NCBI GenBank assembly: GCA_003556385.1
Contig: PWRA01000117.1
Coordinates: forward strand, 1-36,492
Length of the DNA: 36,492 bases
Source of the DNA: Dehalococcoidia bacterium
Lineage (GTDB): Bacteria; Chloroflexota; Dehalococcoidia; GIF9; AB-539-J10
Direction of reading: 5' to 3'
Within the stretch, counting starts at the first letter, position 1. Every line of letters begins with the position of its first letter. Below, one piece after another: positions 15,223 to 33,610 of the stretch. The notes under the pieces were generated by a model, which did no database searches, was not told the origin of the DNA, and worked only from the letters and a program-made list of their open reading frames with translations. A program made the position numbers and the translations under genes.

Positions 15223-16113
15223 CTAGCCAGCAAGCCCTGCCGCTTTCAGGATGTCCGGGACTACCTCCTCTTTGCCTATCGCCATGACGTGCACTCCATG
15301 GCAGAGCGATTCGTCTTTCAGCGTGGCGATCATCCTGCCCGCGATCTCTATGCCCTTGTTGAGGGCTTCGCCCTTAGGGGCAGCGGCCATCTCGTCGACC
15401 AGGTCCTGGGGTACGAAGACACCCGGGACGTTGTCGTTCATGTACTTCGCCATCCTGGCCGAGACGAGTAGGATAATGCCGGCCAGTATCTTGACCGGGA
15501 ACGGGCGTGCGTACTCCATGAACCTAGCGAAGTTTTCCAGGTCATATATGGCCTGGGTTTGAAAGAACTCAGCCCCGGCTTCCACCTTCTTTTCGAACTT
15601 GATGAGCTGAGGTTCGATCGGATGTGCCTCGGGCGTGACTATGGCTCCGGCACAGAACTCAACAGCCCCGTCCAGGTCATTGCCGCCCAGGTCAGTGCCC
15701 GATTCCAGCTGTCGGATCGTCTTCAGTAGCTGTGCCGAATCGAGGTCGAAAACACCCTTGGCTTCCTTGTGGTCGCCGACCACCACGGCGTCTCCGGTCA
15801 GGCATAGGACATTTCTCACACCCCGGGTGTGCGCGAAGAGAAGCTCGGCTTGCAGGGCAAGGCGATTACGGTCGCGGCAGGTCACCTGTAGTATGGGCTC
15901 GCCGCCCCGTTCGACAACGCTCAGGCAGCCACCGATGGACGGGAACCGCATGACCGAACTCTGGTGATCGGTGACGTTCAGTGCGTCGACCTTGTCTTTG
16001 AGCAAATCGATATGATGCAGCATCTTCTCGATGTTCGTCCCTTTCGGGGGCCCGATCTCGCTCGTTATTACGAACCTGCCGGACTGTAGAGCGTCCCTGA
16101 AACGCGATGGCAT
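15223..16113 (-). CDS. metF: Methylenetetrahydrofolate reductase, MetF catalytic subunit
   Basis: MetF reduces 5,10-methylene-THF to 5-methyl-THF, the last reductive step of the methyl branch of the Wood-Ljungdahl pathway. The 296-residue TIM-barrel protein has E19 in TSEIGPPKG (the general acid position), NVTDHQ near 46-51 and the family pattern QTQAIYDLENF. It is the short form without the eukaryotic regulatory domain. GGGAGGG precedes the ATG. It lies 11 bases after metV and ends the operon that begins with the FDH-like gene. In acetogens the electron donor to MetFV varies (NADH, RnfC2 or Hdr-type partners). Here the neighbours are NuoE, NuoF-GltD and an FDH-like protein. Confidence 0.93.
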   Translation of the reverse strand: MPSRFRDALQSGRFVITSEIGPPKGTNIEKMLHHIDLLKDKVDALNVTDHQSSVMRFPSIGGCLSVVERGGEPILQVTCRDRNRLALQAELLFAHTRGVRNVLCLTGDAVVVGDHKEAKGVFDLDSAQLLKTIRQLESGTDLGGNDLDGAVEFCAGAIVTPEAHPIEPQLIKFEKKVEAGAEFFQTQAIYDLENFARFMEYARPFPVKILAGIILLVSARMAKYMNDNVPGVFVPQDLVDEMAAAPKGEALNKGIEIAGRMIATLKDESLCHGVHVMAIGKEEVVPDILKAAGLAG

Positions 16114-16124
16114 AGTCCCTCCCT

Positions 16125-16769
16125 TCAGACAATCCGGGTCATCCGGGGCCTGGGCGCGATGTTATAGTTCCGGGCACTGTGATACCTTCGCATGGCATCG
16201 ACCCGGCCCTGGTCCGTTAGCCTCTGATGTATGATAGTCCAGGCACAGTCCTTTTCGCTGTCGACCTCACATTTGCCCTGATTTGTGCCGCCGCAGGGTC
16301 CGTTGAGCAGACCCTTGTGGCACGCGGTCACGGGACAGATCCCGGCGGTCTCACCCAGGACGCACTGACCGCACTGCGCGCAGGCCTCCTGGAAGCAGCC
16401 GGAACCATCTTCAATGCCTATGAACAGGGTGTCGAGAGCTGGGATGACCGGCCTGGCCAGACAGGTACTCATTCTGTGCACCCCCAACGCGCAGCTCATT
16501 ACCAGTATACAGCCGGCATTCCGAATGGCGCCGTTGTTTTCTTCCATGGCCGCCTGGGTCATGTCATCGCAGGCAGTGGGGATAACAATCCAGCCGGTTA
16601 CCAGCTTACCGAGCTGTTGCAGACGCTCCCTCATCGCCAGCACCTCTTCCCTTCCGCCGGTCCTGGTCATGGTGGCGCACGTGCCGCAGCCGGCGATGTA
16701 CACCCGGTCGAATCCCTGTAACTGCTGCTCGATCTCCTCAGGAAGCTTTTGTCTCGTAATAGATTTCAT
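16125..16769 (-). CDS. metV: MetV, cysteine-rich partner of MetF (MTHFR C-terminal family)
   Basis: This 214-residue protein has the hallmark LLNGPCGGTNQGKCEV (about 154-169) of the MTHFR C-terminal Pfam family. It contains many cysteines: C28, C31 and C67 in the N-terminal half, then C125, C130, C133, C136, C145, C150, C159, C167 and C175. In known MetFV enzymes MetV carries an iron-sulfur cluster and zinc and passes electrons to MetF flavin. AGAGGTGA precedes the ATG. It lies 75 bases after the NuoF-GltD gene and 11 bases before metF, so all are probably co-transcribed. Confidence 0.9.
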   Translation of the reverse strand: MKSITRQKLPEEIEQQLQGFDRVYIAGCGTCATMTRTGGREEVLAMRERLQQLGKLVTGWIVIPTACDDMTQAAMEENNGAIRNAGCILVMSCALGVHRMSTCLARPVIPALDTLFIGIEDGSGCFQEACAQCGQCVLGETAGICPVTACHKGLLNGPCGGTNQGKCEVDSEKDCAWTIIHQRLTDQGRVDAMRRYHSARNYNIAPRPRMTRIV

Positions 16770-16844: not shown

Positions 16845-19800
16845 TCACTTCTCCAGGTCGCATCTCAGGCAACGCCCGGCCTCCTGCCTTGCTTTCTCCT
16901 CGGAAAAGCCCAACTCTACCTCTGTGAAGCTGTCTTTCCTTTCCTGTATCGGAAGGTAAGGCACCTCCGGCCTGAACTGCGATTCCCAGCTTTCCTCCTC
17001 CTCTCGCATCGGTGCTTCTTCGATGACCTCGGGCTTCAGGTCATACATCTCAACCCGCGAGGCGTCGCCCCTGAGATATTTGTCTATAGCCATCGCTCCG
17101 CGCCGGCCGGCAGCGATGGCATCGATGACCATACCCGGACCGAAGACAAAATCGCCGCCGGCGAAGACCCCGGGGACGTTGGTTACGAGCGTGTTGTCGT
17201 CTACTGCCAGCCGTTCCCAGCGGGTACGCTCAAGAGCGCTATCGGGCGGCAGGAACGACAGGTCGGGAGCTTGCCCGACAGCGGCGATGACAGTATCGGC
17301 CGGGACAAAGAATTCCGAGCCGGGAACAGGGATCGGGCGACGCCTTCCGCCGGGGTCGGGTTCGCCCAGTTGCATGCGGACACACTGCAAACCGGTCACC
17401 TTCCAGTGATCGCTTACGATGCGGGTGGGGCTGACCAGGAAGCTGATGCGCACGCCCTCAGCCAGGGTCTCGTCGCACTCCACCTCGGTGACCGGCATTT
17501 CCTCCCGCGACCGACGGTATAGGACGCCAACCTCGTCGGCCCCGAGGCGCAGGGCCGTGCGGGAGGAGTCAAGGGCCACGTTACCGCCTCCGATGACGGC
17601 CACGCTGCGCCCGATCTTGATGGGCTTGCCGACCTTTACGTCCCTCAGGAACCTCAGACCGTAATAGAAGCCCTCGACATCATCCAGTTCGCCTGGTATG
17701 CCGATGCTCTGGCTCCTTTGTGCGCCGGCGGCGATGAAGACGGCTTCGAAGCCACTGTTCCTGATATCCTCAACGGTGAAGTTCACGTTGACCGGGGTGT
17801 TGTAGTTTATGTCAACTCCCCGCCTCTCTATATAGTCTATCTCCTGCTTGATGACCCGCCTCGGCAGTCGAAAGTCGGGCAGCGCTACCGATAGCATGCC
17901 CCCGCCCACCGGCAGGGCCTCGAAGACCGTGACGGGGTAGCCTATCTGCGCCAGGAAATAGGCACAGGACAGTCCGGCAGGCCCCGCCCCGACCACCGCC
18001 ACCTTCTGGCTCTGAGTCCGGGGAAATGGCTCCGGATCATGTAGCTCATTGAGGTGATCGAAGTACCAGTCGGCGGCAAAGCGCTTGAGGGACCTGATGG
18101 CTACCGACTCGTCCAGCTCGCCGCGGCGGCACCTGCCTTCACATGGGTGATGACAGATCCGGCCGCATATCGCGGGGAAGGGATTGCGCTCTCTGATGGT
18201 GTCTACGGCCTCCAGATATTCACCGCTGGCGATCTGAGACACGTACTTGGGAACGTTGATTCCTACCGGGCACGTATGCTGACACGGCGACACCATGAGG
18301 GCATCGCAGACGGCCGCCGGGCATCTCTTCTCGCGTATGTGCATCTCGTATTCCTGCCTGAAGTAGTCGAGCGTGGTGAGTACGGGATTGGGACAGGTCT
18401 GGCCGAGTCCGCACAGCGAGGACTCCTTTACCGTCCTGGCGATGGTAAGCAAAGCGTCCATGTCCTCCTCGCGCCCCTTGCCCCGGGTGATCCGGGTCAG
18501 TATCTCCAGCATCTGCCTGGTTCCCAGACGGCAGGGGACACACTTGCCACAGGACTCCTCCTGGGTGAAGCTCAAGAAATACCGGGCCACCTCCACCATG
18601 CAGGTGGTCTCGTCCAGCACGACCATGCCCCCTGACCCCATGATGGAGCCCAGTTGTGCCAGCGTTTCGTACTCCACCGGCGAATCGAGGAACTGTGCAG
18701 GTATGCAGCCGCCCGAAGGGCCTCCCGTCTGCACGGCCTTGAACCGCCTGCCTCGCGGGATACCGCCTCCGATATCGAAGATGATGGTGGAGAGGGAGGT
18801 GCCCATGGGCACCTCGACCAGCCCGCTGTTGGCGATCTTCCCCGTGAGGGCAAAGACGGCGGTCCCTCTGGTCTTTTCGGTGCCTATACCGGCAAACCAT
18901 GCGGCTCCCCTGTCGATGATGACCGGGACCGAGGCCAGGCTCTTTACATTGTTGATGGTAGTGGGCCTTCCCTCCAGGCCGGATTGGGCGGGGAACGGGG
19001 GGCGGGGACGCGGCATGCCCCTGCGGCTCTCGATGGACGCCATGAGAGCTGTCTCCTCGCCGCACACGAAGGCTCCTGCGCCTTCCTTGATATGGACGCG
19101 GAAATCAAAACCTGAGCTAAGGATGCCTTCCCCCAGGAAATTCTTCTTCTGCGCCTGCTCCAGGGCAATGCGGATACGCTTCACCGCCAGGGGATACTCC
19201 GCGCGGACATAGATATAGCCCTCGTGGGCGGCCATCGCATACCCGGCGATGGCCAGCCCTTCAACAACAGCGTGTGGGTCTGCCTCCAGGATGGAACGGT
19301 CCATGAAGGCGCCGGGGTCGCCTTCGTCGGCATTGCATATCACGTATTTCTTCTTCCCGGTAGCATTGCGGCAGAATTCCCACTTGAGACCGGTGGGAAA
19401 ACCGGCGCCGCCCCGCCCACGGAGCCCCGACTTCTTGACCTCCTCGATTACCTGGTCTGGCGTCATGAGAAGGGCCTTTCTCAGTGCCCGATAGCCCCCG
19501 CGGGCGACATAGTGGTCGATCCTCTCGGGGTTGATCTGGCCGCAGTTGCGGAGGATCACGCGTTGTTGTCTCCTGTAGAAGTCTATCTCCGAATAGTACG
19601 GTATGGCCTCGCCAGTCGCGGGATCACGGTAGAAAAGACGTTCCACGGGCCTGCCATCCCGGAGATGCGAGTCTACGATTTCAGGGACATCTTCCACCTG
19701 AACGTGGGTATAGAAGATGCCTTCCGGCTCCACGACTACGTTGGGGCCCTGCTCGCAGAAGCCGTGGCAACCGGTGAAATCCACCTCGATACGGGCCATC

Positions 19801-19922
19801 CCCTGCCCGCCGGTCGCCTCACGGAGCGCGTCATAGACAGCGCCAGCGCCGCTGGAGACGCATCCCGTTCCTTCACAGACGAGTACACTACGGCGGTTCT
19901 GCATATCGTTCTCTCTGCTCAT
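16845..19922 (-). CDS. NuoF-GltD fusion: diaphorase joined to an NfnB/GltD-type FAD/NAD(P) oxidoreductase
   Basis: The 1025-residue protein combines four parts. Residues 10-95 are a thioredoxin-like [2Fe-2S] domain (C16, C21, C52, C56). Residues 125-540 are a NuoF/HydB diaphorase with the FMN/NADH loop GLRGRGGAGFPTGLKW (166-181), the CGEETALM and RPRPPFPAQ motifs, and a [4Fe-4S] site (C458, C461, C464, C504). Residues 545-625 are a GltD-type N-terminal Fe-S domain (C547, C551, C586, C590, C594, C598). Residues 640-950 are an FAD domain (VAVVGAGPAGLS) and a second nucleotide domain (VAVIGGGNVALD, LYRRSREEMP). It could oxidise or reduce NAD(H) at the NuoF site and NAD(P)(H) at the GltD-like site, and is a candidate for flavin-based bifurcation. 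ATG 19922 overlaps nuoE by 35 bases; ATG 19904 is an alternative with GAGAG upstream. Confidence 0.9.
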   Translation of the reverse strand: MSRENDMQNRRSVLVCEGTGCVSSGAGAVYDALREATGGQGMARIEVDFTGCHGFCEQGPNVVVEPEGIFYTHVQVEDVPEIVDSHLRDGRPVERLFYRDPATGEAIPYYSEIDFYRRQQRVILRNCGQINPERIDHYVARGGYRALRKALLMTPDQVIEEVKKSGLRGRGGAGFPTGLKWEFCRNATGKKKYVICNADEGDPGAFMDRSILEADPHAVVEGLAIAGYAMAAHEGYIYVRAEYPLAVKRIRIALEQAQKKNFLGEGILSSGFDFRVHIKEGAGAFVCGEETALMASIESRRGMPRPRPPFPAQSGLEGRPTTINNVKSLASVPVIIDRGAAWFAGIGTEKTRGTAVFALTGKIANSGLVEVPMGTSLSTIIFDIGGGIPRGRRFKAVQTGGPSGGCIPAQFLDSPVEYETLAQLGSIMGSGGMVVLDETTCMVEVARYFLSFTQEESCGKCVPCRLGTRQMLEILTRITRGKGREEDMDALLTIARTVKESSLCGLGQTCPNPVLTTLDYFRQEYEMHIREKRCPAAVCDALMVSPCQHTCPVGINVPKYVSQIASGEYLEAVDTIRERNPFPAICGRICHHPCEGRCRRGELDESVAIRSLKRFAADWYFDHLNELHDPEPFPRTQSQKVAVVGAGPAGLSCAYFLAQIGYPVTVFEALPVGGGMLSVALPDFRLPRRVIKQEIDYIERRGVDINYNTPVNVNFTVEDIRNSGFEAVFIAAGAQRSQSIGIPGELDDVEGFYYGLRFLRDVKVGKPIKIGRSVAVIGGGNVALDSSRTALRLGADEVGVLYRRSREEMPVTEVECDETLAEGVRISFLVSPTRIVSDHWKVTGLQCVRMQLGEPDPGGRRRPIPVPGSEFFVPADTVIAAVGQAPDLSFLPPDSALERTRWERLAVDDNTLVTNVPGVFAGGDFVFGPGMVIDAIAAGRRGAMAIDKYLRGDASRVEMYDLKPEVIEEAPMREEEESWESQFRPEVPYLPIQERKDSFTEVELGFSEEKARQEAGRCLRCDLEK

Positions 19923-20391
19923 GGTCTCTGAACAGCGCCTCCGTCTTCCTCGGGTTCATATGGCCATAGACCTGGTCGGCCACAACTATGTTGGGGGCGA
20001 GCGCACAAACGCCGATGCAGGCTACGGTCTCCAGCGTGTATTCCATGTCTGGGGTCGTCTCGCCCTCCTCTATACCCAGATGCTGCTTCACCAGCTTCAG
20101 TATCGTCTTCCCTCCCCGTACATGGCAGGCAGTGCCCCGGCACACCCTGACGATCTTTCTGCCGCGGGGCTCGGTGTAGAGCTGAGTATAGAAACTGATC
20201 ACGCCCTGCACCTGGCTCGGGAAGAGTCCCAGACTCCTGGCTATAATGGATATGGACTGTGGAGGGATGAATCCGACCTCGTTCTGGATTTCCTGTAAGA
20301 GCGGTATCATCGCCCACTTCTGCCCGCTATGTCTGGACACAATGCCCTGTATATGGGCGAGATCGGCCCCCGTGATCGTCGCGTCATCCAT
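19888..20391 (-). CDS. NuoE-like thioredoxin-fold [2Fe-2S] subunit
   Basis: From the ATG at 20391 this is 167 residues: a helical N-terminus, then the thioredoxin-like [2Fe-2S] domain with VCRGTACHVRGG (CX4C) and VACIGVCALAPN (CX3C). Such subunits dock on NuoF and relay electrons in complex I, bifurcating hydrogenases and HylC-type formate dehydrogenases. The frame extends to a GTG at 20433, but the ATG with AAAGGA 9 bases upstream fits the family start better. It lies between the FDH-like gene and the NuoF-GltD fusion and overlaps the latter, which implies coupled synthesis of a complex. All four cluster cysteines are present. Confidence 0.92.
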   Translation of the reverse strand: MDDATITGADLAHIQGIVSRHSGQKWAMIPLLQEIQNEVGFIPPQSISIIARSLGLFPSQVQGVISFYTQLYTEPRGRKIVRVCRGTACHVRGGKTILKLVKQHLGIEEGETTPDMEYTLETVACIGVCALAPNIVVADQVYGHMNPRKTEALFRDHEQRERYAEPP

Positions 20392-20443
20392 CTGGTGCCA
20401 TCCTTTCAGTTCGCCCTCCGGCCTGTCTAACACCGCGCCTGTC

Positions 20444-20490: not shown

Positions 20491-23193
20491 TTACATCCCG
20501 GGTTCCTTTTCTACTCTCACGCTGCATGCTTTCAGTGAGGGTGCTCCGGTCCCGGGGTCGGTCACGATGGGCAACAAGCCACTAAACGATGTCCCCGGGA
20601 ATGAGACCGGCATGAAGAGCAGCCCCTCGGGCACCGAACCGGACACCTTTACCACCGAGCTGGCCCTGCCAATTGCCGAGACCAGGTTGACCTTCTCACC
20701 TTCGGTGATGGACAGCTCCCTGGCATCGGCTTCACAGATTTCCACAAAGGGTTCGGGGCAGAATCTCTGCAATCGCGGAGACCGTGAGCTTCTCGAGCCG
20801 GTGCCGAAGTGCTCGGGAATGGCCCCGCCGAGCAGGGTAAGAGGATATTCCCTTTGCGCCCTGGCGGGCGGAACGTACTCAACAGGACAAAAGCGCGCGA
20901 AGCCCTCTGCGAACTGCCCGCCGTGCATCCGCCCAACGCCCCGGGAAGCGGTCGACTCAGCCCTGTCCAGACTCCTCGCCTCCGGGTCCACCTGATCGAC
21001 CCCCTCATATGAGCTATAGGCTGGCAACCGACAGCAATCCGCTATCTCATCCAGGACGTCCTGGGCCGAGGAATAGGGCATGGGGGCTCCCATCCTCTCT
21101 GCCACCCGCAGGACTATCTCCCAGTCGGGTAAGCTCTCGCCCGGCGGATCGATTGCCTTCTGCACCTTCCGCACCGTGCCCTCGAAACTGGTGAATGTGC
21201 CGTCTCGTTCGGCGAAGCTTGCCGCCGGTAGAACCACGTCCGCCTGTCTCGCCGTTTCGGTCAAAAACATGTCCTGTACCACGAGGAACTCCAGCGAGGC
21301 CAGGCTTTTGCCGATCAGACTGGAATCGGGGAAGCTCACCATCGGGTTTTCCCCCACGATGTACATGCCTCTGATATTCCGCTCCTGTGCCTGTTGCATA
21401 ATCTCCAGGGCCGTCAGGCCGGGTCTGGCCGGAAGGTCGGCGCCCCAGCGTTCTTCGAATTGCCGCCTGGCGGTCGCATCGGCCAGGCTGTGATATCCGG
21501 GGAGAAATCCGGGCAGCATGCCCATGTCGCACGCTCCCTGACCGTTGTTCTCTCTTTGCAGCGCATAGACGCCGCCTCCCCGGCGCCCGATGTTACCGGT
21601 CAGCAATGCCAGGTTGGCCAGGGCCCGCACGCCGTCCGTTCCTCCGCGGTGCTGAGTGATCCCGGTGCCAAAGACGATTGCCGCCCGGCTCGCCCGAGCA
21701 TAGAGCCGGCCGGCGGTAGTGATCTCCAGAGCCGGAACGCCCGTAGCCCCCTCGACACGGTCCGGGGTGTACTCCTTCAGGCTCTCGACGTAGGCGCTAA
21801 GGTTGTCCGTTCTCCGGCCCACGAACTCCTCGTCCACCAGTCCTTCCTCGGTGATCACCCTGGCCAGCCCGTTCAGCAGCGCCACGTCCGTGCCGACCGT
21901 GGGTCGTAGCCAGAGATGAGCGAACAGAGCGAGCCCGATCCTCCTGGGGTCTGCCAACAGCAGCGTGGCACCTCTCTGCTTGACGGCGCGCTTAATGGCG
22001 TATCCGACGGCAGGAGCCGAGGAGCCGGGGTCGGCTCCGACAACAAAGATAAGGTCGGATTGCTCCAGGTCGCTGAGGTGATTGGTAGTACCCGAGAAGC
22101 CGAGGGTCGAGCCCAGCCCAACGCGGCTGGCGGCGTTATACAGCCGGCCTCCGTTATCGATGTTGTCGGTGCCCAACACGGACCGGGCGAGCCTCTGCAA
22201 GAGATAGTTTTCTTCGTTGGTGCACCGCGACGAGCCCAGCACGGCCAGACTGTCACCGCCATATTCGTCCTTTATGCGCTTGAATCGACTAGCTACAATA
22301 TGTAATGCTTCATCCCAGGATACTTCCTCGAGGCCGCTGTCCCTTCTGGCCCAAGGTGTGAAAAGCCTCTCCGGGCTATGCACAAAATCGCAGCCGTAGC
22401 TCCCCCTGATGCAAAGGGTGCCAGTGTTCGGCGTATCCTCCTTGCCCGGCACCACCCTCACCACGCGATTATCCTTCACTTCCAGGCCCATGCTACAGCC
22501 ACAGCCGCAGTACGGGCAGGTCGTCTGCACGACGGTCTGAGCGGTACCCCTGTACGCTCCTTCCTTTTCCATCAGCGCACCCGTCGGACACAGTGCCACA
22601 CAGGTGCCGCAAAAGCTACACTCGGATTCTTCGAGGGGCAGATCACCCAACGTTGTCGGTACGGTCGTGAATCCCCGCCGGAAGTAATCGATAGCGCCCT
22701 CCACAACCAGGTCCTGACAGGCCCTGATGCATCTAGCACACAGGATGCACTTGCTGAGGTCGCGTTCCAGGAAGGGGTTGGCCTCGACTATGCTGGCTAG
22801 CTGAGGAATCCTCTGCAGATCGACCGCTCCGATGTCCAGGTCCGATGCGATCTTGCGCAACTGGCAGCGGTTGCCCTTGTTGCACACCAGGCAGGCATCG
22901 GGATGACTGGCAAGCATGAGCTTCACTATAGTCCGGCGGCTCTCCAGGACCTTATCGGACAGCGTATTGATCACCATTCCGGGTGCGATGGGAGCGACAC
23001 AGGAAGCGACCAGGGAGCCGCTTCGTTCGTCTTCCACGAGGCACACTCGACAGGCCCCCATCGAGGGAAGCCGGGGATGATGGCACAGAGTAGGAATATC
23101 CACGCCCGATTCCTCGGCCAACTCCAGAACGGTCATACCCGGTTGGCCGCTTACTTCTCGCCCATCAAGCGTTATGGTTATTGTCGGCTGCAA
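20491..23193 (-). CDS. FDH-like/NuoG-like molybdopterin oxidoreductase lacking the catalytic Cys/Sec
   Basis: From the TTG at 23193 the protein has 900 residues. It carries an N-terminal [2Fe-2S] domain (C37, C48, C51, C65), a His-Cys [4Fe-4S] site (H97, C101, C104, C110), two ferredoxin clusters (C149-C152-C155-C159 and C192-C195-C198-C202), a molybdopterin-type [4Fe-4S] site (C226, C229, C233, C261), the large cofactor domain and a C-terminal molydopterin-binding domain (from about 780). The match to FdhA is close (LGSSRCTNEENYLLQ), but the usual ARL-C/U-H motif reads GRL-Y352-N353. Formate dehydrogenase activity is therefore doubtful. The TTG is preceded by AAGGAGG at 7 bases; the upstream ATG at 23241 is buried in a hairpin. 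It is the first gene of the NuoE/NuoF-GltD/MetVF operon. Confidence 0.88.
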   Translation of the reverse strand: MQPTITITLDGREVSGQPGMTVLELAEESGVDIPTLCHHPRLPSMGACRVCLVEDERSGSLVASCVAPIAPGMVINTLSDKVLESRRTIVKLMLASHPDACLVCNKGNRCQLRKIASDLDIGAVDLQRIPQLASIVEANPFLERDLSKCILCARCIRACQDLVVEGAIDYFRRGFTTVPTTLGDLPLEESECSFCGTCVALCPTGALMEKEGAYRGTAQTVVQTTCPYCGCGCSMGLEVKDNRVVRVVPGKEDTPNTGTLCIRGSYGCDFVHSPERLFTPWARRDSGLEEVSWDEALHIVASRFKRIKDEYGGDSLAVLGSSRCTNEENYLLQRLARSVLGTDNIDNGGRLYNAASRVGLGSTLGFSGTTNHLSDLEQSDLIFVVGADPGSSAPAVGYAIKRAVKQRGATLLLADPRRIGLALFAHLWLRPTVGTDVALLNGLARVITEEGLVDEEFVGRRTDNLSAYVESLKEYTPDRVEGATGVPALEITTAGRLYARASRAAIVFGTGITQHRGGTDGVRALANLALLTGNIGRRGGGVYALQRENNGQGACDMGMLPGFLPGYHSLADATARRQFEERWGADLPARPGLTALEIMQQAQERNIRGMYIVGENPMVSFPDSSLIGKSLASLEFLVVQDMFLTETARQADVVLPAASFAERDGTFTSFEGTVRKVQKAIDPPGESLPDWEIVLRVAERMGAPMPYSSAQDVLDEIADCCRLPAYSSYEGVDQVDPEARSLDRAESTASRGVGRMHGGQFAEGFARFCPVEYVPPARAQREYPLTLLGGAIPEHFGTGSRSSRSPRLQRFCPEPFVEICEADARELSITEGEKVNLVSAIGRASSVVKVSGSVPEGLLFMPVSFPGTSFSGLLPIVTDPGTGAPSLKACSVRVEKEPGM

Positions 23194-23215
23194 ACCGGCA
23201 TCCTCCTTCACAATC

Positions 23216-23239
23216 GGGCAGGCCGCGGTCGGCCTGCCC
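23216..23239 (-). other. Strong hairpin between the double-receiver gene and the redox operon
   Basis: GGGCAGGCC and GGCCTGCCC form a perfect 9-bp stem with a 6-base loop, starting 8 bases after the regulator stop and ending 22 bases before the TTG start. No T-tract follows in the minus direction. It may separate expression of regulator and enzymes by attenuation or RNA processing. Confidence 0.5.
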
Positions 23240-23247
23240 ATAAAGGA

Positions 23248-24075
23248 TCACTTGTTCTTGCCCAGGCCCTCTGGCCAGTTGGCCGAGACATAGGCGAAGG
23301 ACGGGGGGAAGTACCGTCCTTCGCCTACCGTCCTTATCCCGGTCAGGAGGTCGGAACTGGCGGCGTTCTTGGCCACAAAACCGCAGGCCCCCACCTGTTT
23401 GGCGACGAACATGTTCTCTTCTTCGTCATACTGAGTTAGAATCAGGACTTTTGTCTCCGGGCATTTCTCGGTTATTCGTTTCGTTGCTTCAAGCCCGCTC
23501 ATCACAGGCATTACTACGTCCATCACCGCTACTTTAGGCGCAAGGCGCTGCACCTTATCAACGGCGTCCCGCCCATCCACGGCCTCACCTATTACTTCCA
23601 TCTCCTCTTGCAGATTCAGCAGGGCGCAGATCGCTTCCCTCACTACGGCGTGGTCATCTACTACCAGCACCCTGATTTTCTTCAGGCCCCTGTCCAGGAA
23701 TCTTTGGGCCCAGGTCACGACTGCACCCGGCTCTACCGGCTTGATCAGGTACTGCTCCGCCTCCAGCTTCAGACCCTCATCCATACGCCATCCCTTGGTG
23801 AGACGCTCTTCGGCCGTTGCGTCCACCACAATGAGAGGGACGTCTCTCAGATGCGGGCTCTGCTTCAACCATTTGTGCAGTCGAAAGGCATCCCCACGCG
23901 GCACTATTGTGCCCAGAATCACCAGGTCGGGTTTCTGCCCGCGCGCTGCCTCCTCCGCCTGCGATCTGTCTCCGGCTGTCAGCACCTGCCACCCTATTGC
24001 CCGGCATTCAGACTGTATGTCTGCGATGAATGCCGGCTCATCATCAACCAGCAGAATACTGACCATCGTTTCCAT
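23248..24075 (-). CDS. Double-receiver protein with a degenerate first REC domain, no output domain
   Basis: This 275-residue protein has two receiver domains and little else. REC1 (about 5-125) keeps the acidic pair in LLVDDEP and the lysine in YLIKPV, but the phosphoacceptor position reads G55 (PDLVILGTIVP). REC2 (about 133-255) is complete: VLVVDDH, phosphoacceptor D186 in VMDVVMP, K236 in FVAKNA. REC2 closely resembles the receiver of the NarL-type regulator next door, yet there is no helix-turn-helix domain. It may act as a phosphate sink or as a partner of the kinase/regulator pair upstream. The ATG at 24075 is favoured over 24078 because AGGAGG lies at better spacing. It directly precedes the redox operon. 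Confidence 0.88.
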   Translation of the reverse strand: METMVSILLVDDEPAFIADIQSECRAIGWQVLTAGDRSQAEEAARGQKPDLVILGTIVPRGDAFRLHKWLKQSPHLRDVPLIVVDATAEERLTKGWRMDEGLKLEAEQYLIKPVEPGAVVTWAQRFLDRGLKKIRVLVVDDHAVVREAICALLNLQEEMEVIGEAVDGRDAVDKVQRLAPKVAVMDVVMPVMSGLEATKRITEKCPETKVLILTQYDEEENMFVAKQVGACGFVAKNAASSDLLTGIRTVGEGRYFPPSFAYVSANWPEGLGKNK

Positions 24076-24215
24076 CATTACCTCCTCGTGAACTCAAACT
24101 CTGAGTAGCCAACCGCGTGCTGCTAACACATCAAGTATAGGGCCGGGCCTACTGATGGAATAGAGGTGTTCACCCCAGATGGCAGGACAATATGCCCGCA
24201 GTTCCTGGTAGTTAA

Positions 24216-24237
24216 CCTCTCACTTATCCGTGCGAGG
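24216..24237 (-). terminator. Stem-loop after the NarL-type regulator
   Basis: CCTCGCAC and GTGAGAGG pair at 7 of 8 positions around a 6-base loop, about 60 bases past the regulator stop. It is a possible terminator or attenuator. A TATACT -10-like box at 24139-24134 further downstream could start transcription of the double-receiver gene, without a clear -35. Confidence 0.3.
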
Positions 24238-24296
24238 TTTCGCCACCATGCAGTGCAGGTCGATCCCGAGGCTGCGGGCACTCTGAGGCAGTAGGG

Positions 24297-24950
24297 TCAG
24301 ACGCTGATGATGCCCTTGCGCAGGGCGTACTTGAACAGGTCGAGACGGTTATGTATGTGGAGCTTCCCCATCAGGTTGGTCTTGTGTCTTTCTACAGTCT
24401 TGGGGCTGATGGCCAGGATTCGGGCTATCTCATGAACGGACCGTCCTTCGGCCAGCATTTTCAGTGTTTCTCTCTCCCGATCGGTCAACTGCTCGAAGGC
24501 GTCCTTGTTTCTGTCTGCTCTGGCTATCTGTCGGTAGTCTTCTACCATGAGTCTGGCTACGGACGGAGATAGAAAGGAATCGCCGCGGTACACGCACCTG
24601 ATCGCCGAGGTAAGCTCTGAAGACGCCGCTGCCTTACTAACAAAGCCGCTCGCTCCCGCTTCGATGACCGGGAAGACATGCTCGCTGTCGTCGTATTGGG
24701 TCAGCACTATGACCTTTATCTCCGGGAACTCCTTGTTTATGCGCCGGGTGGCCTCCAGTCCATCCATGAGAGGCATCACCAGGTCCATCAACACCACATT
24801 GGGCCTCAGCTTTGCAGCTATCTCCAGCGCTTCGCGTCCGTTTGTGGCCTCCCCTACCGCTTCGATATCCTCGGTCAGGGCAAGCAAGGCGCGAATACCA
24901 TCACGTACGATGGCGTGGTCATCAGTCACCAGTACTCTTATTTTTGCCAT
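24297..24950 (-). CDS. NarL/FixJ-family response regulator
   Basis: This 217-residue regulator has a receiver domain (residues 4-120; acidic pair D10-D11, phosphoacceptor D56 in LMDLVMP, K106) and a LuxR-type helix-turn-helix (about 148-210) with LTDRERETLKMLAEGRS and ISPKTVERHKTNLMGKL. It would be phosphorylated by the adjacent kinase and bind DNA. Its ATG lies inside the last 29 bases of the kinase gene, indicating a coupled two-component pair. Position upstream of the redox operon suggests that operon as a target, which is inference. Confidence 0.93.
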   Translation of the reverse strand: MAKIRVLVTDDHAIVRDGIRALLALTEDIEAVGEATNGREALEIAAKLRPNVVLMDLVMPLMDGLEATRRINKEFPEIKVIVLTQYDDSEHVFPVIEAGASGFVSKAAASSELTSAIRCVYRGDSFLSPSVARLMVEDYRQIARADRNKDAFEQLTDRERETLKMLAEGRSVHEIARILAISPKTVERHKTNLMGKLHIHNRLDLFKYALRKGIISV

Positions 24951-26226
24951 ATTCGGTATCCTGCGTTATGGGAATGCGGGCCCAAACGGTGGTTCCTTCT
25001 CCGATCGTGGACTCGACACCGCTGGTGCCGCCCATGAATCCGATCCGCTCCCGCATACTGAACAGACCGCGCCCCCGCCCGCTTTCCTCCACATCCGTGA
25101 TTCTGGAAACATCAAACCCCTGCCCGTCGTCGCTGATCCTGAGTGAGAACTCTTCCGGTTGATAGACCAGCACGATGGACGCCTTCTTCGCCATGGAATG
25201 CTCGGCGATGTTGCCGATAGCGCCCTGGACAACGCGAAACAGGGCCGCCTCTACGTCGGGCGGAAACCGCATCTCCGTCCCCTGGACCTCTGTGGTTACC
25301 TCGATGTCCAGGGGCTGCAGCCTGGTCTTGGCATGCTGACGGGCAGCTGCGGCCAAACCCAGCGTATCCAGCACAGCCGGGTGAAGGTTGGAGATCACCC
25401 TGCTAACTTCCCTGTGTACCTGCACTGTCAGCGACTGGGCCTTCTTCAGCCCGGCGATGAACTGGGCATCCTGATCGCCGGATCTTGCCGATATTTCAAT
25501 CAATGCTTCCAGCTGAAGCGCTATCCCGGAGAGCGATTGACTGGTCTCGTCGTGTAGCTCCCGGGCAATTCTTCTCCGTTCCGCCTCTTCCGCCGCCAGA
25601 TTCTGCCGTGCGAGTTTGCGTAATCTTTCCCGTGCTCCTCGGAGTCGCTCATGCAGTCTTGCCTGCTCGATAGCTATGCCGAGCTGGTCTCCGATAGAGT
25701 GCAACATATGCACATCCCCTTTGGTGAAGCGGTGAGGCATGTGGCTGGCGACATTCATCACGCCCAGAACGCTGTTCTTTGCTCTCAGGGGGACGCTGAT
25801 GAAGGCCCTCAGATCTTCTGAGCTTATCAGATCCATGTAGGCGGCGTCGGGTTCGGATGATATGTCCTCAAGCAGCACCGATCTGCCGTCCTGTGCCACC
25901 TTTCCCGCGACCCCCTCGCCCAGTTTAAGATGCATGCCTTCGGCGTATCTGGCGGATAGTCCACGATAGACGCGGTAGAACAGCATCTGGCTCGGCTCGT
26001 CGAGTAGCATAATGCCACCGACGGCGCCGTTCATGATGCCAAGAACATTGTCCAGGCCGATCCTGAGGATTGCGTCCAGGTCATCCAGTCCGCTGATCGC
26101 CGCCGAGACCCGACTCAAAGCCACCAGATCATGATAGTGTCCTTCCACCTCAACGCCCGACCCCGAACGACCTGTGCCGGGGTCGGCCTGTCCGGCAGCC
26201 CTGTTGCCCCTCTTGTCCTCTTTCAC
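24922..26226 (-). CDS. GAF-domain histidine kinase of the NarX/DegS (HisKA_3) type
   Basis: The 434-residue kinase has no TM segment and is likely cytoplasmic. A GAF domain spans about 35-190, followed by a coiled coil (about 190-220), the HisKA_3 box RRRIARELHDETSQSLSG with H225, and an HATPase domain (about 320-420) with N339, DDGQGFD (366-372) and the GRGRGLFSMRERI lid. The GAF domain suggests sensing of a small ligand, redox state or gas. It contains few cysteines, so an Fe-S GAF sensor is not obvious. The start is GTG at 26226 with AGGGA close upstream. It forms a pair with the NarL-type regulator. Confidence 0.9.
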   Translation of the reverse strand: MKEDKRGNRAAGQADPGTGRSGSGVEVEGHYHDLVALSRVSAAISGLDDLDAILRIGLDNVLGIMNGAVGGIMLLDEPSQMLFYRVYRGLSARYAEGMHLKLGEGVAGKVAQDGRSVLLEDISSEPDAAYMDLISSEDLRAFISVPLRAKNSVLGVMNVASHMPHRFTKGDVHMLHSIGDQLGIAIEQARLHERLRGARERLRKLARQNLAAEEAERRRIARELHDETSQSLSGIALQLEALIEISARSGDQDAQFIAGLKKAQSLTVQVHREVSRVISNLHPAVLDTLGLAAAARQHAKTRLQPLDIEVTTEVQGTEMRFPPDVEAALFRVVQGAIGNIAEHSMAKKASIVLVYQPEEFSLRISDDGQGFDVSRITDVEESGRGRGLFSMRERIGFMGGTSGVESTIGEGTTVWARIPITQDTEYGKNKSTGD

Positions 26227-27010: not shown

Positions 27011-28021
27011 GTGATCTGGTTCCAGTTCGTTCTCTGCCTGGCAATCATCCTATTTGCGGGAACGAGGCTCGCCCGGTACGGCGATACTATCGCCGATGAG
27101 TCGAGGTTGGGCCGCATCTGGATCGGGGTTGTGCTCATCGCCTTCATCACCACCATGCCTGAACTGGTCACCGGGGTGAGTTCGGTGGCTCTGGTCGGCT
27201 CGCCCGATCTAGCTTTGGGCGTCGTCCTGGGAAGCTGCTGTTTCAACCTTCTCATCGTGGCGTTGCTGGATATCCGACACACCCGCACACCGGTCCTCAC
27301 AATGGCGAGCCCGAGGCATGCGCTAACGATCAGATGGGGGACCATGCTCATCGCCATCGCAGGCGCAGGAATAGCCTTCGGTGGCGTGGCTATCCCCTCG
27401 ATTCCCGGGTGGCTGGGTATCCCGAGCATCCTCATCCTCGCGCTGTACTTGCTGGGCATGTGGTGGATATTCCGTCGCGAGCGCAGCCACCGTTCAGATG
27501 CAGCCCCACCGGTCTCAGCCGCTCCTGACAGTCTCTCTATGAGAGCGGTGGGCATCAGATTTGCCGTGGCGGCAGCAGCAGTCATCGCTGCCGGCATATG
27601 GCTGTCGTATATCGGCGACGGGATCAGTGAGACCACCGGGTGGGGCGGCACGTTCGTCGGGGCTTTGTTCCTTGCCATCACGACCTCGGCACCCGAACTG
27701 GTGATCGCCTTCACTGCCCTCCGCATCGGTGCCGTGGCCCTGGCGGTGGCCGGTCTGCTGGGGGCGAACATGCTGAATATGGCCATTCTGGTCCCGATTG
27801 ACCTCGCTCACGGAGCAGGGTGTGTTCTTGCGGCTGTGTCAAGCAGTCAGCTCATTATTGCCGGCGTGGCGATTACGATGAGCCTGGTGGTGATTGCCGG
27901 GCTGAGGTTTGGCCGCAGTCGTAAACTCCTCAGGATAGCCAGCTGGTATGCGCCCGTGTTGATCGCGTTCTATATAGTCGGCGCCTATGCCCTGTTTGCA
28001 TCAATTTCAGGTATGTGGTAA
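27011..28021 (+). CDS. CaCA-family (YrbG-like) sodium/calcium-type exchanger
   Basis: From the GTG at 27011 this is 336 residues with about ten TM helices in two inverted halves. The alpha-repeats are visible as TTMPELVTGVSSVALVGSPDLALG...GSCCFNLLI and TSAPELVIAFTALRIGAVALAV...GANMLNMAI, the ion-binding pattern of cation/Ca2+ exchangers. The first repeat has GSCCFN where GSNIFN is usual. It would exchange Ca2+ or another cation against Na+ or H+. The GTG is favoured over the upstream TTG (26978) because AGGAG lies 6 bases upstream. A weak promoter may lie at 26949-26978. It is divergent from the tRNA-Ser genes. Confidence 0.87.
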   Translation: MIWFQFVLCLAIILFAGTRLARYGDTIADESRLGRIWIGVVLIAFITTMPELVTGVSSVALVGSPDLALGVVLGSCCFNLLIVALLDIRHTRTPVLTMASPRHALTIRWGTMLIAIAGAGIAFGGVAIPSIPGWLGIPSILILALYLLGMWWIFRRERSHRSDAAPPVSAAPDSLSMRAVGIRFAVAAAAVIAAGIWLSYIGDGISETTGWGGTFVGALFLAITTSAPELVIAFTALRIGAVALAVAGLLGANMLNMAILVPIDLAHGAGCVLAAVSSSQLIIAGVAITMSLVVIAGLRFGRSRKLLRIASWYAPVLIAFYIVGAYALFASISGMW

Positions 28022-28066
28022 ATTGTGGACTGCTGGATAGTGGCTCTCAGGTCAAGTCAAAGGCCG

Positions 28067-28138
28067 GCCCCTGTAGCTCAGAGGATAGAGCACTGGCCTC
28101 CGGAGCCAGGTGCAAGGGTTCGAGTCCCTTCAGGGGCG
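28067..28138 (+). tRNA. tRNA-Arg (anticodon CCG)
   Basis: GCCCCTG pairs with CAGGGGC, discriminator G. The D arm is GCTC...GAGC, anticodon stem CTGGC/GCCAG encloses CTCCGGA with anticodon CCG, and the T arm is AAGGGTTCGAGTCCCTT. CCA is not encoded. It reads CGG. It ends 26 bases before the porG ATG, so the tRNA and the por operon may share a transcript. Confidence 0.95.
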
Positions 28139-28164
28139 GTTTCAGATTAGAGTCGGATTCTCCT

Positions 28165-28722
28165 ATGAGTAAACTCATCGAGATAAGATGGCACGGCAGG
28201 GGCGGATTGGGGGCTGTGACTTCGGCGGAGTTAGTTGCCCGTGCTGCTATAAATGAAGGCAAGTATGCCCAATCCTTTCCCAGCTTTGGACCTGAGAGAC
28301 GGGGCGCGCCGGTGCTCGCTTTCCTCAGGGTGAGCGATGAACCTATCAGAATCCGGACGGTAATACACCGCCCGGACGCAGTGGCAGTGCTCGACCCGGG
28401 CTTGTTACACGCAGTCGATGTGACGGCGGGGCTGAAGAACGGAGGCACGATCATAATCAACTCGCGAAAATCGCCCGCTGAACTGAAGTCTGAGTTCAAA
28501 TTCGAGTGGCCGGTAGCCTCTGTGTACGCCACGAAGATAGCCCGAGAGACGATAGGCCTGCCCATTACCAACACGTCGATGATCGGTGCGCTACTGAGGG
28601 TTATCGAAATCGTTAAGATAAACTCTCTGATGGCTCAGTTTCAAGAACGCTTCGGGTTTCGGGCCAAGGGAAATATCGAAGCCATGAGAAGAGCTTACGA
28701 TGAGACGGTGGTGCAGGAGTAA
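28165..28722 (+). CDS. porG: 2-oxoacid:acceptor oxidoreductase gamma subunit
   Basis: This 185-residue protein matches the PorG/KorG family. It begins IEIRWHGRGGLGAVTSAELV, has QSFPSFGPERRGAPV and the A-x-LDPGLL segment, and ends in a helical region. In pyruvate-type oxidoreductases the gamma subunit binds CoA and completes the active site. The frame extends upstream through the tRNA-Arg, but the family start is the ATG at 28165. There is no clear Shine-Dalgarno site, so initiation may be leaderless or rely on processing of the tRNA. It is the first gene of the porGDAB-nuoE-nuoF-hoxU-like cluster. Confidence 0.93.
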   Translation: MSKLIEIRWHGRGGLGAVTSAELVARAAINEGKYAQSFPSFGPERRGAPVLAFLRVSDEPIRIRTVIHRPDAVAVLDPGLLHAVDVTAGLKNGGTIIINSRKSPAELKSEFKFEWPVASVYATKIARETIGLPITNTSMIGALLRVIEIVKINSLMAQFQERFGFRAKGNIEAMRRAYDETVVQE

Positions 28723-28725
28723 GCA

Positions 28726-29013
28726 ATGACGGACAAGCTAACCTGGAAGGACATGGAAGTAGGCAATATTGTGAAAGAAGCAGGCAATGCCTGCTTCCGC
28801 AGGACCGGCGACTGGAGAACAGAGAGACCCATACTGGACAAGGACAAATGCATCAAATGCGCTCTATGCTGGCTGTATTGTCCCGATGCGTCCATAAAGC
28901 CCGGTGAGGACGGGTATTACGAGGCCGACCTCTATTACTGCAAAGGGTGCGCGATCTGCGCCAGAATATGTCCCGTGGAAGCTATAAGCATGACAGAAGA
29001 GGAGGAGAGATGA
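28726..29013 (+). CDS. porD: 2-oxoacid:acceptor oxidoreductase delta subunit, 2[4Fe-4S] ferredoxin
   Basis: The 95-residue ferredoxin-like subunit has an N-terminal PorD extension (RRTGDWRTERPILDKDKC) and two clusters, C42-C45-C48-C52 and C72-C75-C78-C82, each CX2CX2CX3CP. It takes electrons from the thiamine-diphosphate site in PorB and passes them to an external acceptor. It is 3 bases after porG and overlaps porA by 4 bases (ATGA), so the subunits are made together. Confidence 0.95.
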   Translation: MTDKLTWKDMEVGNIVKEAGNACFRRTGDWRTERPILDKDKCIKCALCWLYCPDASIKPGEDGYYEADLYYCKGCAICARICPVEAISMTEEEER

Positions 29014-30203
29014 GCCGAAGAGTGGCGTTAGAAGCCTCCCATGCGGTAGCGGAGGCAACCAGGATGGCCGATGTCGATGTCATCTCTGCCTACCCGATAA
29101 CACCGCAGACGCATATCCCGGAGCGTCTTGCCGAAATGGTCGCCTACGGTGATCTGGATGCTGCTTATATACCGGTGGAATCAGAGCATTCGGCCATGAG
29201 CGCTTGTCTGGGAGCCGCTGCGGTAGGCGCCCGGACCTTCACGGCCACCGCCGGACAGGGACTGGAGCTCATGCACGAGGTGGTATACGTTGCCTCCGCA
29301 ATGAGATACCCTGTGATCATGGCGGTAGCCAACAGGGCCCTTTCGGCACCGTTGAGCGTCTGGGGCGATCACTCCGACGCCATGGCGGTGCGCGACACGG
29401 GCTGGATACAGGTGTTCTGTCAGAACAGCCAGGAGGCGTTCGACCTGACAATATGGGCCTTTCGCGTCGGAGAAGATCCTCAAGTGTTGCTGCCGGTTAT
29501 GGTCCATCTGGACGGGTTTACGCTGTCACACGTAACCGAGCCGGTCCTGCTACCGGAACAAAGCGAGGTGGATAGGTTCCTCCCCAGGTACCACTACCGG
29601 TTCGCACTGAACCCCGATCAGCCCATGACTCATGGAGCGTTCGGCCCTCCAGAAATATACGCAGAGACGAAGCTGGCTCAAGCAGTGGTGTTCGACAACT
29701 GCAAGAAAACCATACTCCAGGGGTGGCAGGAGTTCCGAGACATTTTCGGGCGCCACTATAACCCGGTGGAGGAGTACAGGACGGAAAACGCCGAGACACT
29801 GCTTCTGACCATAGGCAGTTTCACTGAGACGGCGAAGATCGTGGTAGATGCAAGGCGGGAGAAGGGCGAGGCCGTAGGGCTGATAAGCCTGCGTCTGTGG
29901 CGCCCCTTCCCATTTGAAGAGTTTCGCCGGGCTGTGAGAGGGGCAAAGACACTGATAGTCTTCGAGAGGGCTATATCCTTCGGCCTCGGGGGGCCCGTGG
30001 TTGCCGAGGTCAGGTCTGCCCTGTACGACGAAGAGACAAGGCCCAAAGTTGCCAGCATCATAGGCGGTCTGGGCGGTCGCGACATGTCCGAAGAGGACTT
30101 CGAGTATGTTATCGATAGAGGTAGAGAAGTCGCTGAAAAGGGCTCCGACAGGGTGCTTGAGACGGTCGGCATACGGGGCGAATCGGAAGCGCTCAAGCGA
30201 TAG
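29010..30203 (+). CDS. porA: 2-oxoacid (probably pyruvate):acceptor oxidoreductase alpha subunit
   Basis: PorA is the pyrimidine-domain subunit. The 397 residues contain SAYPITPQT, VESEHSAMSACLGAA, FTATAGQGLELM and LPVMVHLDGFTLSH, which are classical for the pyruvate/2-ketoisovalerate group, with a transketolase C-terminal domain near 260-340. The ATG at 29010 has GGAGGAG upstream and overlaps the porD stop; an earlier in-frame start exists but lies within porD. The four-subunit order gamma-delta-alpha-beta is the archaeal-type and anaerobe-type POR. Pyruvate is the most likely substrate, but 2-oxoisovalerate cannot be ruled out. Confidence 0.93.
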   Translation: MSRRVALEASHAVAEATRMADVDVISAYPITPQTHIPERLAEMVAYGDLDAAYIPVESEHSAMSACLGAAAVGARTFTATAGQGLELMHEVVYVASAMRYPVIMAVANRALSAPLSVWGDHSDAMAVRDTGWIQVFCQNSQEAFDLTIWAFRVGEDPQVLLPVMVHLDGFTLSHVTEPVLLPEQSEVDRFLPRYHYRFALNPDQPMTHGAFGPPEIYAETKLAQAVVFDNCKKTILQGWQEFRDIFGRHYNPVEEYRTENAETLLLTIGSFTETAKIVVDARREKGEAVGLISLRLWRPFPFEEFRRAVRGAKTLIVFERAISFGLGGPVVAEVRSALYDEETRPKVASIIGGLGGRDMSEEDFEYVIDRGREVAEKGSDRVLETVGIRGESEALKR

Positions 30204-30223
30204 CTGTATATAAAGGATAGGAA

Positions 30224-31171
30224 ATGGCAATAACGGAAGTGAAGTTCGGCGACAGGCTGCTAACGTCCAAGGAGTTTCTGGCCGAAGGGCATAATTTCTG
30301 CATCGGTTGCGGCGAGCCCATGGCGATCAGAATGGTCCTGAAGACTCTCGGGGAGAACGTGATAATGGCCATGGCAACCGGCTGTGATGAGGTAACTACC
30401 ACTCCGCTCCCCTATACGTCCTGGCGGATACCCTGGATGCACACGCTTTTCGAGAACACAGCGGCCGAGATCTCGGGTGTGGAGGCCGGACTCAAGATCC
30501 TGATGAAGAAAGGCAGGATTCCTGAGAGGCGTATCACCTGCATCGCCATGGCCGGAGACGGCGGAACAAGCGATATCGGGCTGCAGGCTCTGTCGGGCGC
30601 ACTGGAGAGAGGCCATGACTTCGTGTACATCTGTCTTGACAATGAAGCCTACATGAATACTGGAATCCAGAGGTCGAGTTCTACACCATACGGCGCTTCG
30701 ACCACCACAGCTCCGGCCGGGAAAATGAGCATGGGGCAGATCACCCGCAAGAAGAACATCGTGGCCATCGCGGCCGCCCATGGCATACCATACGTGGCAA
30801 CGGCCTCGCCCAGCTACCACTTTGACCTGATGAGAAAGGTGAGAAAGGCGGCCGATACGAAAGGGCCGGCCTATGTGCATATCCTGACGCCCTGCCCCAC
30901 GGGCTGGAGGTGTGGCGGTGATATCACGGTGCAGATAGGTCAGCTCGCCGTGCAAACCGGCGTCTTCCCCCTGTATGAGATAGAGCATGGGCGTTACCGG
31001 CTCAACGCTGATCCCCCGAGGCTCAAACCCATTGAGGAATACCTGAAGCTACAGGGACGATACCGGCACTTGACAGACGATCACGTGGCAAGAATCCAGG
31101 AGATGGTAAACGAGGACTACGCCGGACTCAAAGAGAAAGCGGCCTGTTTTCCAGTCGAAGCGAAGGAATAG
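30224..31171 (+). CDS. porB: 2-oxoacid (probably pyruvate):acceptor oxidoreductase beta subunit
   Basis: PorB binds thiamine diphosphate and a [4Fe-4S] cluster. The 315-residue protein has cluster cysteines C26 and C29 (FCIGCGEP) and C54 (ATGCDE), with C224 in TPCPTGW as the likely fourth. The cofactor motif runs from MAGDGGTSDIG (109-119) to LDNEAYMNTG (138-147). It converts pyruvate and CoA to acetyl-CoA and CO2, or the reverse, with low-potential electrons sent to PorD. The next gene, nuoE, starts 3 bases after the stop, linking the oxidoreductase to a diaphorase module. Confidence 0.95.
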   Translation: MAITEVKFGDRLLTSKEFLAEGHNFCIGCGEPMAIRMVLKTLGENVIMAMATGCDEVTTTPLPYTSWRIPWMHTLFENTAAEISGVEAGLKILMKKGRIPERRITCIAMAGDGGTSDIGLQALSGALERGHDFVYICLDNEAYMNTGIQRSSSTPYGASTTTAPAGKMSMGQITRKKNIVAIAAAHGIPYVATASPSYHFDLMRKVRKAADTKGPAYVHILTPCPTGWRCGGDITVQIGQLAVQTGVFPLYEIEHGRYRLNADPPRLKPIEEYLKLQGRYRHLTDDHVARIQEMVNEDYAGLKEKAACFPVEAKE

Positions 31172-31174
31172 CAG

Positions 31175-31663
31175 ATGATGGTGTCAACAACAAAGAGCAA
31201 AGGTCTACCGAAGGCTTCCGGGGCGGTGAAGAAGGCTGTCGGCAGCTATGGGAAGGACAAAGAGGCGCTAATCCAGGTCCTTCTTGATCTGCAGGCGGTG
31301 TTTGGATGGTTGCCACCGGGGGTCTTGAGAGAAGTGAGTGAGCAACTGGATGTGCCTGTCGTACAGGTCTACCGAATCGCCAGCTACTATAAGGCTTTCA
31401 GCCTTCAGCCCAGGGGCCGGCACATTATCAAGGTCTGCATGGGCACGGCATGCCAGGTGCGTCGTTCGCCGCAGCTTCTGAACACCATCTCAGCCGTCTT
31501 GAAGATGAAGCCGTGCGAGACCTCGACAGACGGGCGGTTTACTCTGGAGACGGTCAACTGCCTTGGCTGTTGTGCGATGGGTCCTGTGGTTGCGATCGAC
31601 GACGTGTACCACAGCAACCCTTCGACTGCCGACCTCCAGAAGGTATTTGAGTCGGCTGAATAG
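31175..31663 (+). CDS. NuoE-like [2Fe-2S] subunit of the POR-linked module
   Basis: This 162-residue protein has a helical N-terminus (about 20-80) and a thioredoxin-like [2Fe-2S] domain. The cluster motifs are intact: VCMGTACQVRRS (CX4C) and VNCLGCCAMGPV (CX3C). It is a paralogue of the NuoE at 19888 but clearly diverged in sequence. Either of the two adjacent ATG codons may be the start. Its position between porB and the second NuoF suggests that it docks a diaphorase onto the 2-oxoacid oxidoreductase. Confidence 0.92.
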   Translation: MMVSTTKSKGLPKASGAVKKAVGSYGKDKEALIQVLLDLQAVFGWLPPGVLREVSEQLDVPVVQVYRIASYYKAFSLQPRGRHIIKVCMGTACQVRRSPQLLNTISAVLKMKPCETSTDGRFTLETVNCLGCCAMGPVVAIDDVYHSNPSTADLQKVFESAE

Positions 31664-31672
31664 AGGCAAACT

Positions 31673-33604: not shown

Positions 33605-33610
33605 GTTGAT

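Follow-up and report, generated by a model that had tools for sequence, protein, structure and literature searches.

In the X-type (group III) methylenetetrahydrofolate reductase (MTHFR), named in 2021, NuoEFG homologues are encoded upstream of metFV in Dethiosulfatarculus and 'widely in Desulfobacterales and Chloroflexi' (Yi et al. 2021, PMC8515935). In the sections of that paper drawn on here, an NAD(P)H site was not detected in MetFV itself and is placed on the partner subunits, and bifurcation is only speculated by the authors. The 6S type MTHFR of Moorella, HdrABC-MvhD-MetVF, resembles the locus described below in carrying an NAD(H)-linked module on MetVF and is proposed to bifurcate, but its electron module is of the Hdr type and that of our locus is of the Nuo/Fdh type; comparative genomics of ANME/SRB, in the sections drawn on, describes HdrABC-MetF and not the present block. 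The same NuoE, NuoF, GltD and NuoG modules, together with an inactive FdhF-like domain, occur in the StnABC transhydrogenase, which acts on NAD(P) and ferredoxin only and is encoded downstream of metVF in Sporomusa ovata (PMC7483475). The FdhF-like domain of StnC lacks catalytic activity and mediates assembly of the tetramer (PMC10482914), and formate activity was not found for StnC (PMC7483475). Dehalococcoides OmeA (CISM), compared here by description, is likewise FDH-like, lacks Sec/Cys, does not use formate and is thought to transfer electrons, with HupX, OmeB and Rdh as partners in a membrane OHR complex.

The window, a stretch of 36,492 nucleotides from a Dehalococcoidia bacterium, encodes on its reverse strand a block of the order FdhA-like–NuoE–NuoF::GltD–MetV–MetF, with the FdhA-like gene first. 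The FdhA/NuoG-like subunit, whose formate site is lost, spans 20491..23241 (916 codons from ATG 23241; assigned by Pfam, TIGR01591 and alignment to FdhH). It is followed by a NuoE-like [2Fe-2S] subunit (19888..20433), with four Cys kept in 34/34 loci, and by a 1025-aa NuoF::GltD fusion (16845..19922) that combines Trx-like 2Fe-2S, Nuo51 FMN/NADH, 4Fe-4S and GltD/NfnB-like FAD-NAD(P)H domains, the last with the motifs GGGNVALD and RRSREEMP; its cluster cysteines are fully or almost fully conserved. MetV (DUF5981; 16125..16769) has 12 invariant Cys in 34 loci, and no solved structure of MetV was found; MetF, the methylenetetrahydrofolate reductase (15223..16113), is the most conserved subunit (71-88% identity). 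As in the X-type description, NuoEFG homologues lie directly upstream of metV-metF (23241-15223 in the window, and in 32/32 loci), MetV precedes MetF and the MetV cysteines are kept; the sections of that description drawn on do not present the 'NuoG' as a full-length FdhA paralogue whose formate site is lost, and are silent on the GltD fusion and on active-site sisters (PMC8515935). The window protein belongs to the X-type gene set and, by analogy, probably works like StnC, although GltD is fused N-terminally to NuoG in StnC and to NuoF in the window, and the complex encoded here is proposed to act on methylene-THF.

This MetV-MetF context was overlooked by the initial annotation, which had cited Dehalococcoides FDH-like proteins as precedent. 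The comparison with OmeA stands as a functional analogy, but OmeA is not the nearest counterpart, StnC being nearer. No HupX/OmeB-type membrane partners, nor Rdh, occur among the scanned neighbours (13700-34240), and no membrane Nuo subunits lie next to the FdhA-like gene, which adjoins NuoE, NuoF::GltD, MetV and MetF. Among loci whose contig extends at least 5.6 kb past the FdhA-like gene on its downstream side, MetV and MetF follow the gene with the lost site in 26/26 from Chloroflexi and 6/6 from Desulfobacterota, whereas a same-strand MetV up to 9 kb downstream was seen at only 2/15 canonical FDH loci, namely L172, discussed below, and L185, where MetV lies 6 kb away.

Several further features of these neighbourhoods were recorded. 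Upstream of the block, and also on the reverse strand, a regulatory trio (23248-26226) conserved in most Chloroflexi loci comprises a two-receiver response regulator (23248..24078), a LuxR-type response regulator (24297..24950) and a GAF sensor histidine kinase with a HisKA_3 domain (24922..26226). On the forward strand, 28015-34240 encodes PorC-PorA-PorB and then a second NuoE, NuoF and HoxU/NuoG-N set, read as a 2-oxoacid oxidoreductase that has an NADH module of its own. Seven Desulfobacterota loci (L035, L037-L040, L043 and L057) carry an additional, divergent MetF-like gene (28-31% identity) immediately 5' of the one for the FdhA-like subunit; the FdhA-like ORF of L043, from Desulfonema magnum, spans just 746 aa, stops 1.9 kb short of NuoE and may be interrupted.

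The FdhA-like gene has an alternative TTG start at 23193, with AAGGAGG just 5' of it, which is likelier than ATG 23241; residues Y352/N353 counted from the TTG correspond to Y368/N369 counted from the ATG, the numbering used here. Pfam, TIGR01591 and AlphaFold2/Foldseek all indicate the FdhA fold and Mo-bisPGD domains, and the FdhA landmark LGSSRCTNEENYLLQ reported in the initial annotation is present. The AlphaFold2 model (mean pLDDT 79, pTM 0.80) superimposes on the alpha subunits of NAD-dependent FDHs 6tg9 and 7vw6 with Foldseek TM-scores of 0.82-0.84, the value for 6tg9 being 0.83; it is cofactor-free, and parts of residues 114-232 are modelled with low confidence, so that it informs on the fold only, without metal geometry. 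Overall fold and Fe-S chain are shared with these enzymes, but the window protein lacks their Sec/Cys, His, Arg and Gln.

E. coli FdhH, as encoded in the MG1655 record, served as the reference for the active-site columns. In the motif GGRLYNAASR, Tyr368-Asn369 (22135..22140; TAT 22138-22140, AAC 22135-22137) occupies the Sec140-His141 columns without indels, confirming the earlier observation of Tyr-Asn in place of the catalytic Sec/Cys-His pair, and the codons together with an ORF free of in-frame stops bear out the exclusion of a hidden selenocysteine. The loss is wider than that annotation described, extending to Arg333, Gln335 and mostly Lys44. Leu561-Gln562-Arg563-Glu564 (21550..21561, coordinates from the ORF start 23241) aligns with Val332-Arg333-Gly334-Gln335, so that the substrate Arg is gone (R333 to Q562) and G334 and Q335 have become R563 and E564. 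Arg279 (22405..22407) stands in the column of Lys44, the Lys between pterin and [4Fe-4S] in FdhH; this change alone is not decisive, because K44R retains some activity in E. coli FDH-H (PMC12176258). A sequencing error, frameshift or chance substitution was rejected as the source of Tyr-Asn, since the frame is open and Tyr recurs among Chloroflexi homologues; a pseudogene was rejected because the ORFs are intact and alignable in dozens of genomes with Fe-S ligands kept, and a substitute Cys as metal ligand because the alignment is ungapped there and the loop of the window protein contains no other Cys.

Conservation was assessed in 30 canonical FDHs and in homologues from Chloroflexi (45) and Desulfobacterota (nine). 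Of the Chloroflexi proteins, 41 have Tyr at the metal column, where Cys, Ser, His and Val occur once each; the His141 column holds Ser (21), Asn (19), Gly (3) or others and His in 0/45; the Arg333 column is Gln in 39/45 and Arg in 0/45; Glu/Asp fills the Gln335 column in 43/45; and at the Lys44 column 32 proteins have Arg and 12 have Lys. The canonical FDHs retain Cys/Sec (30/30), His (29/30), Arg333 (30/30) and Lys44 (30/30), of which only the His and Lys counts are independent, the set having been picked by Cys/Sec and Arg. Near-invariant canonical columns are kept at a level of at least 90% in 32 of 46 cases, the lost ones including the active-site set. Among Desulfobacterota homologues the metal column is mostly Ser, and the loop is eroded further, making the alignment less certain there.

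Single proteins depart from these patterns. One member of the clade with the lost site (L143/L159, G236) has Cys at the metal column (RLCS) without His or Arg, and a canonical-clade FdhA (L025/L204, G025:C15) has RLCH with Leu replacing Arg333. Two Verrucomicrobiota proteins (L049, L050) represent another FdhF-like family, with GVYC for R-L-(C/U)-H and Thr for Arg333, the gene of L050 lying near Mrp-type antiporter and 49/30-kDa hydrogenase-like genes.

The iron-sulfur wiring is retained, as the initial annotation had stated. The ligands C53/C64/C67/C81, H113/C117/C120/C126, C165/C168/C171, C208/C211/C214/C218 and C242/C245/C249 correspond to the N-terminal 2Fe-2S, a His-ligated cluster, two 4Fe-4S clusters and the proximal cluster, and are kept in nearly all 45 Chloroflexi and all nine Desulfobacterota homologues (95-100%); C277 is kept in all homologues aligned.

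A maximum-likelihood tree (quick mode, midpoint root) places the proteins with the lost site in one clade across two phyla (SH-aLRT 100), and a single loss of the formate site would fit this topology. Its sister comprises four FdhAs from the same class with RLCH and Arg intact. Among these, L172 has the order FdhA-NuoE-NuoF-MetV and L174 (G328) the order FdhA-MetV-MetF, its first two genes sharing a 4-bp overlap and NuoEF not being found nearby; their MetVs pair together beside X-type MetVs, in a comparison where only two other MetVs serve as outgroup. The simplest order of events would be that an active FDH was joined to MetVF first and the formate site was lost afterwards; sister loci in which an intact formate site adjoins MetV suggest a formate-linked MTHFR ancestor.

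Canonical FDHs also occur in genomes with the inactivated copy (G009 and G036), as do Sec forms in G034, G171 and, by TGA-containing matches, Desulfonema magnum; no other FDH was seen in the window's own bin, which is fragmented and ~90% complete. A family search for Moco genes recovered FdhD and MoeA from the window's genome, but not MoaC from its ~90% complete bin, although most congeners have it. Elsewhere, a 1182-aa protein was noted in which a DMSO-reductase-family molybdopterin oxidoreductase is fused to a class-V aminotransferase of the cysteine desulfurase type (L129:452-3997, G000:C139), and related genomes G010, G011 and G014 contain 1153-aa frames at similar matches.

Taken together, the window protein is probably a burnt-out FdhA paralogue acting as Fe-S conduit and scaffold of a five-subunit NAD(P)H-linked MTHFR. 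A conduit role is the most likely one because the gene shares its operon with MetV-MetF in every checkable relative, and is further favoured by the loss of catalytic columns that the 30 canonical FDHs keep, by the retained Fe-S ligands and by the persistence of a canonical FDH in several genomes with the inactivated copy. FdhA-like, NuoE, NuoF::GltD, MetV and MetF would form the complex, with NAD(P)H oxidised at the NuoF FMN and/or GltD FAD sites and electrons passing from NuoE into the FdhA-like subunit, along its NuoG-type clusters to MetV and on to the flavin of MetF. The latter would reduce methylene-THF, or presumably run in reverse in organisms oxidising acetyl units. The domain search places two flavin domains in NuoF::GltD, and these sites, together with kinship to Stn and Hyd NuoF subunits, suggest that electron bifurcation is possible. 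From its active-site residues, the FdhA-like subunit is inferred to have no formate activity. The earlier proposal of an electron-transfer scaffold rather than an FDH is thus well supported by the changed Sec/Cys, His and Arg, the intact Fe-S ligands and the linkage to NuoE, NuoF::GltD, MetV and MetF.

Against a pure scaffold, Tyr, Gln and Glu/Asp are partly conserved in their columns and not random, and since the cofactor-domain fold and 32/46 canonical columns are retained, bis-MGD may still bind and some activity may persist. A neofunctionalised molybdo- or tungstoenzyme, with bis-MGD in the pocket, a metal ligated by Tyr or by no protein residue, and another substrate within the complex, would draw on this fairly conserved Chloroflexi residue set, on FdhD and MoeA and on some superfamily members, AioA among them, in which the metal has no protein ligand (PMC10100899). 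We consider it unlikely, given that the metal column shifts to Val, His, Ser and Cys within the clade, that the loop is eroded in Desulfobacterota and that the new residues, A409 and G688 excepted, fall outside the most conserved columns. Its more specific form, in which the pocket contains Mo/W-bisPGD, has a tyrosinate on the metal or close to it and a second shell rebuilt as Gln-Arg-Glu/Asp, and performs a new redox step within the MTHFR complex, is decidedly improbable. Tyr is unlikely as a required metal ligand because Val, His or Ser stand there in intact blocks, and the moderate conservation of its column (32nd percentile of Mo-domain columns) makes a structural role or early fixation likelier than ligation. 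The idea that Tyr at the metal marks a distinct state, contrasted in the initial annotation with Ser in Dehalococcoides FDH-like proteins, consequently lacks support as a functional claim.

The shared modules and the S. ovata gene arrangement would also suit a Stn-like bifurcating transhydrogenase of NADPH, NAD and ferredoxin merely encoded beside metVF; we regard this as rather unlikely, since a common regulon would not require a linkage as close as that seen in the 32/32 loci of two phyla, in which MetV-MetF follow directly, and GltD is joined to NuoF, not NuoG. A formate dehydrogenase with an altered site that passes formate electrons to MetVF is very unlikely: overall FdhA similarity, a TIGR01591 score of 677 bits that barely clears the cut-off of 666.25 and sisters with RLCH and Arg adjoining MetV, which make a formate-driven ancestor plausible, are set against a clade devoid of Sec/Cys, His and Arg and against separate FDHs kept by genomes such as Desulfonema magnum.

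The literature searched contained no report combining Dehalococcoidia, FDH, tyrosine and selenocysteine, no Chloroflexi X-type set whose NuoG-like subunit is a burnt-out FdhA carrying Tyr in its metal column and no active-site sister FdhAs beside MetV. As the TIGR01591 score exceeds the cut-off, NCBIfam would name the window protein formate dehydrogenase alpha; this family, whose members can clear that threshold, is an annotation trap by which genomes can be assigned a CO2/formate chemistry that they do not have. The conduit reading would define the make-up of the unstudied X-type MTHFR and would mean that uncultured Chloroflexi, which are widespread, and sulfate reducers have converted a catalytic FDH subunit into wiring that serves the Wood-Ljungdahl methyl branch.
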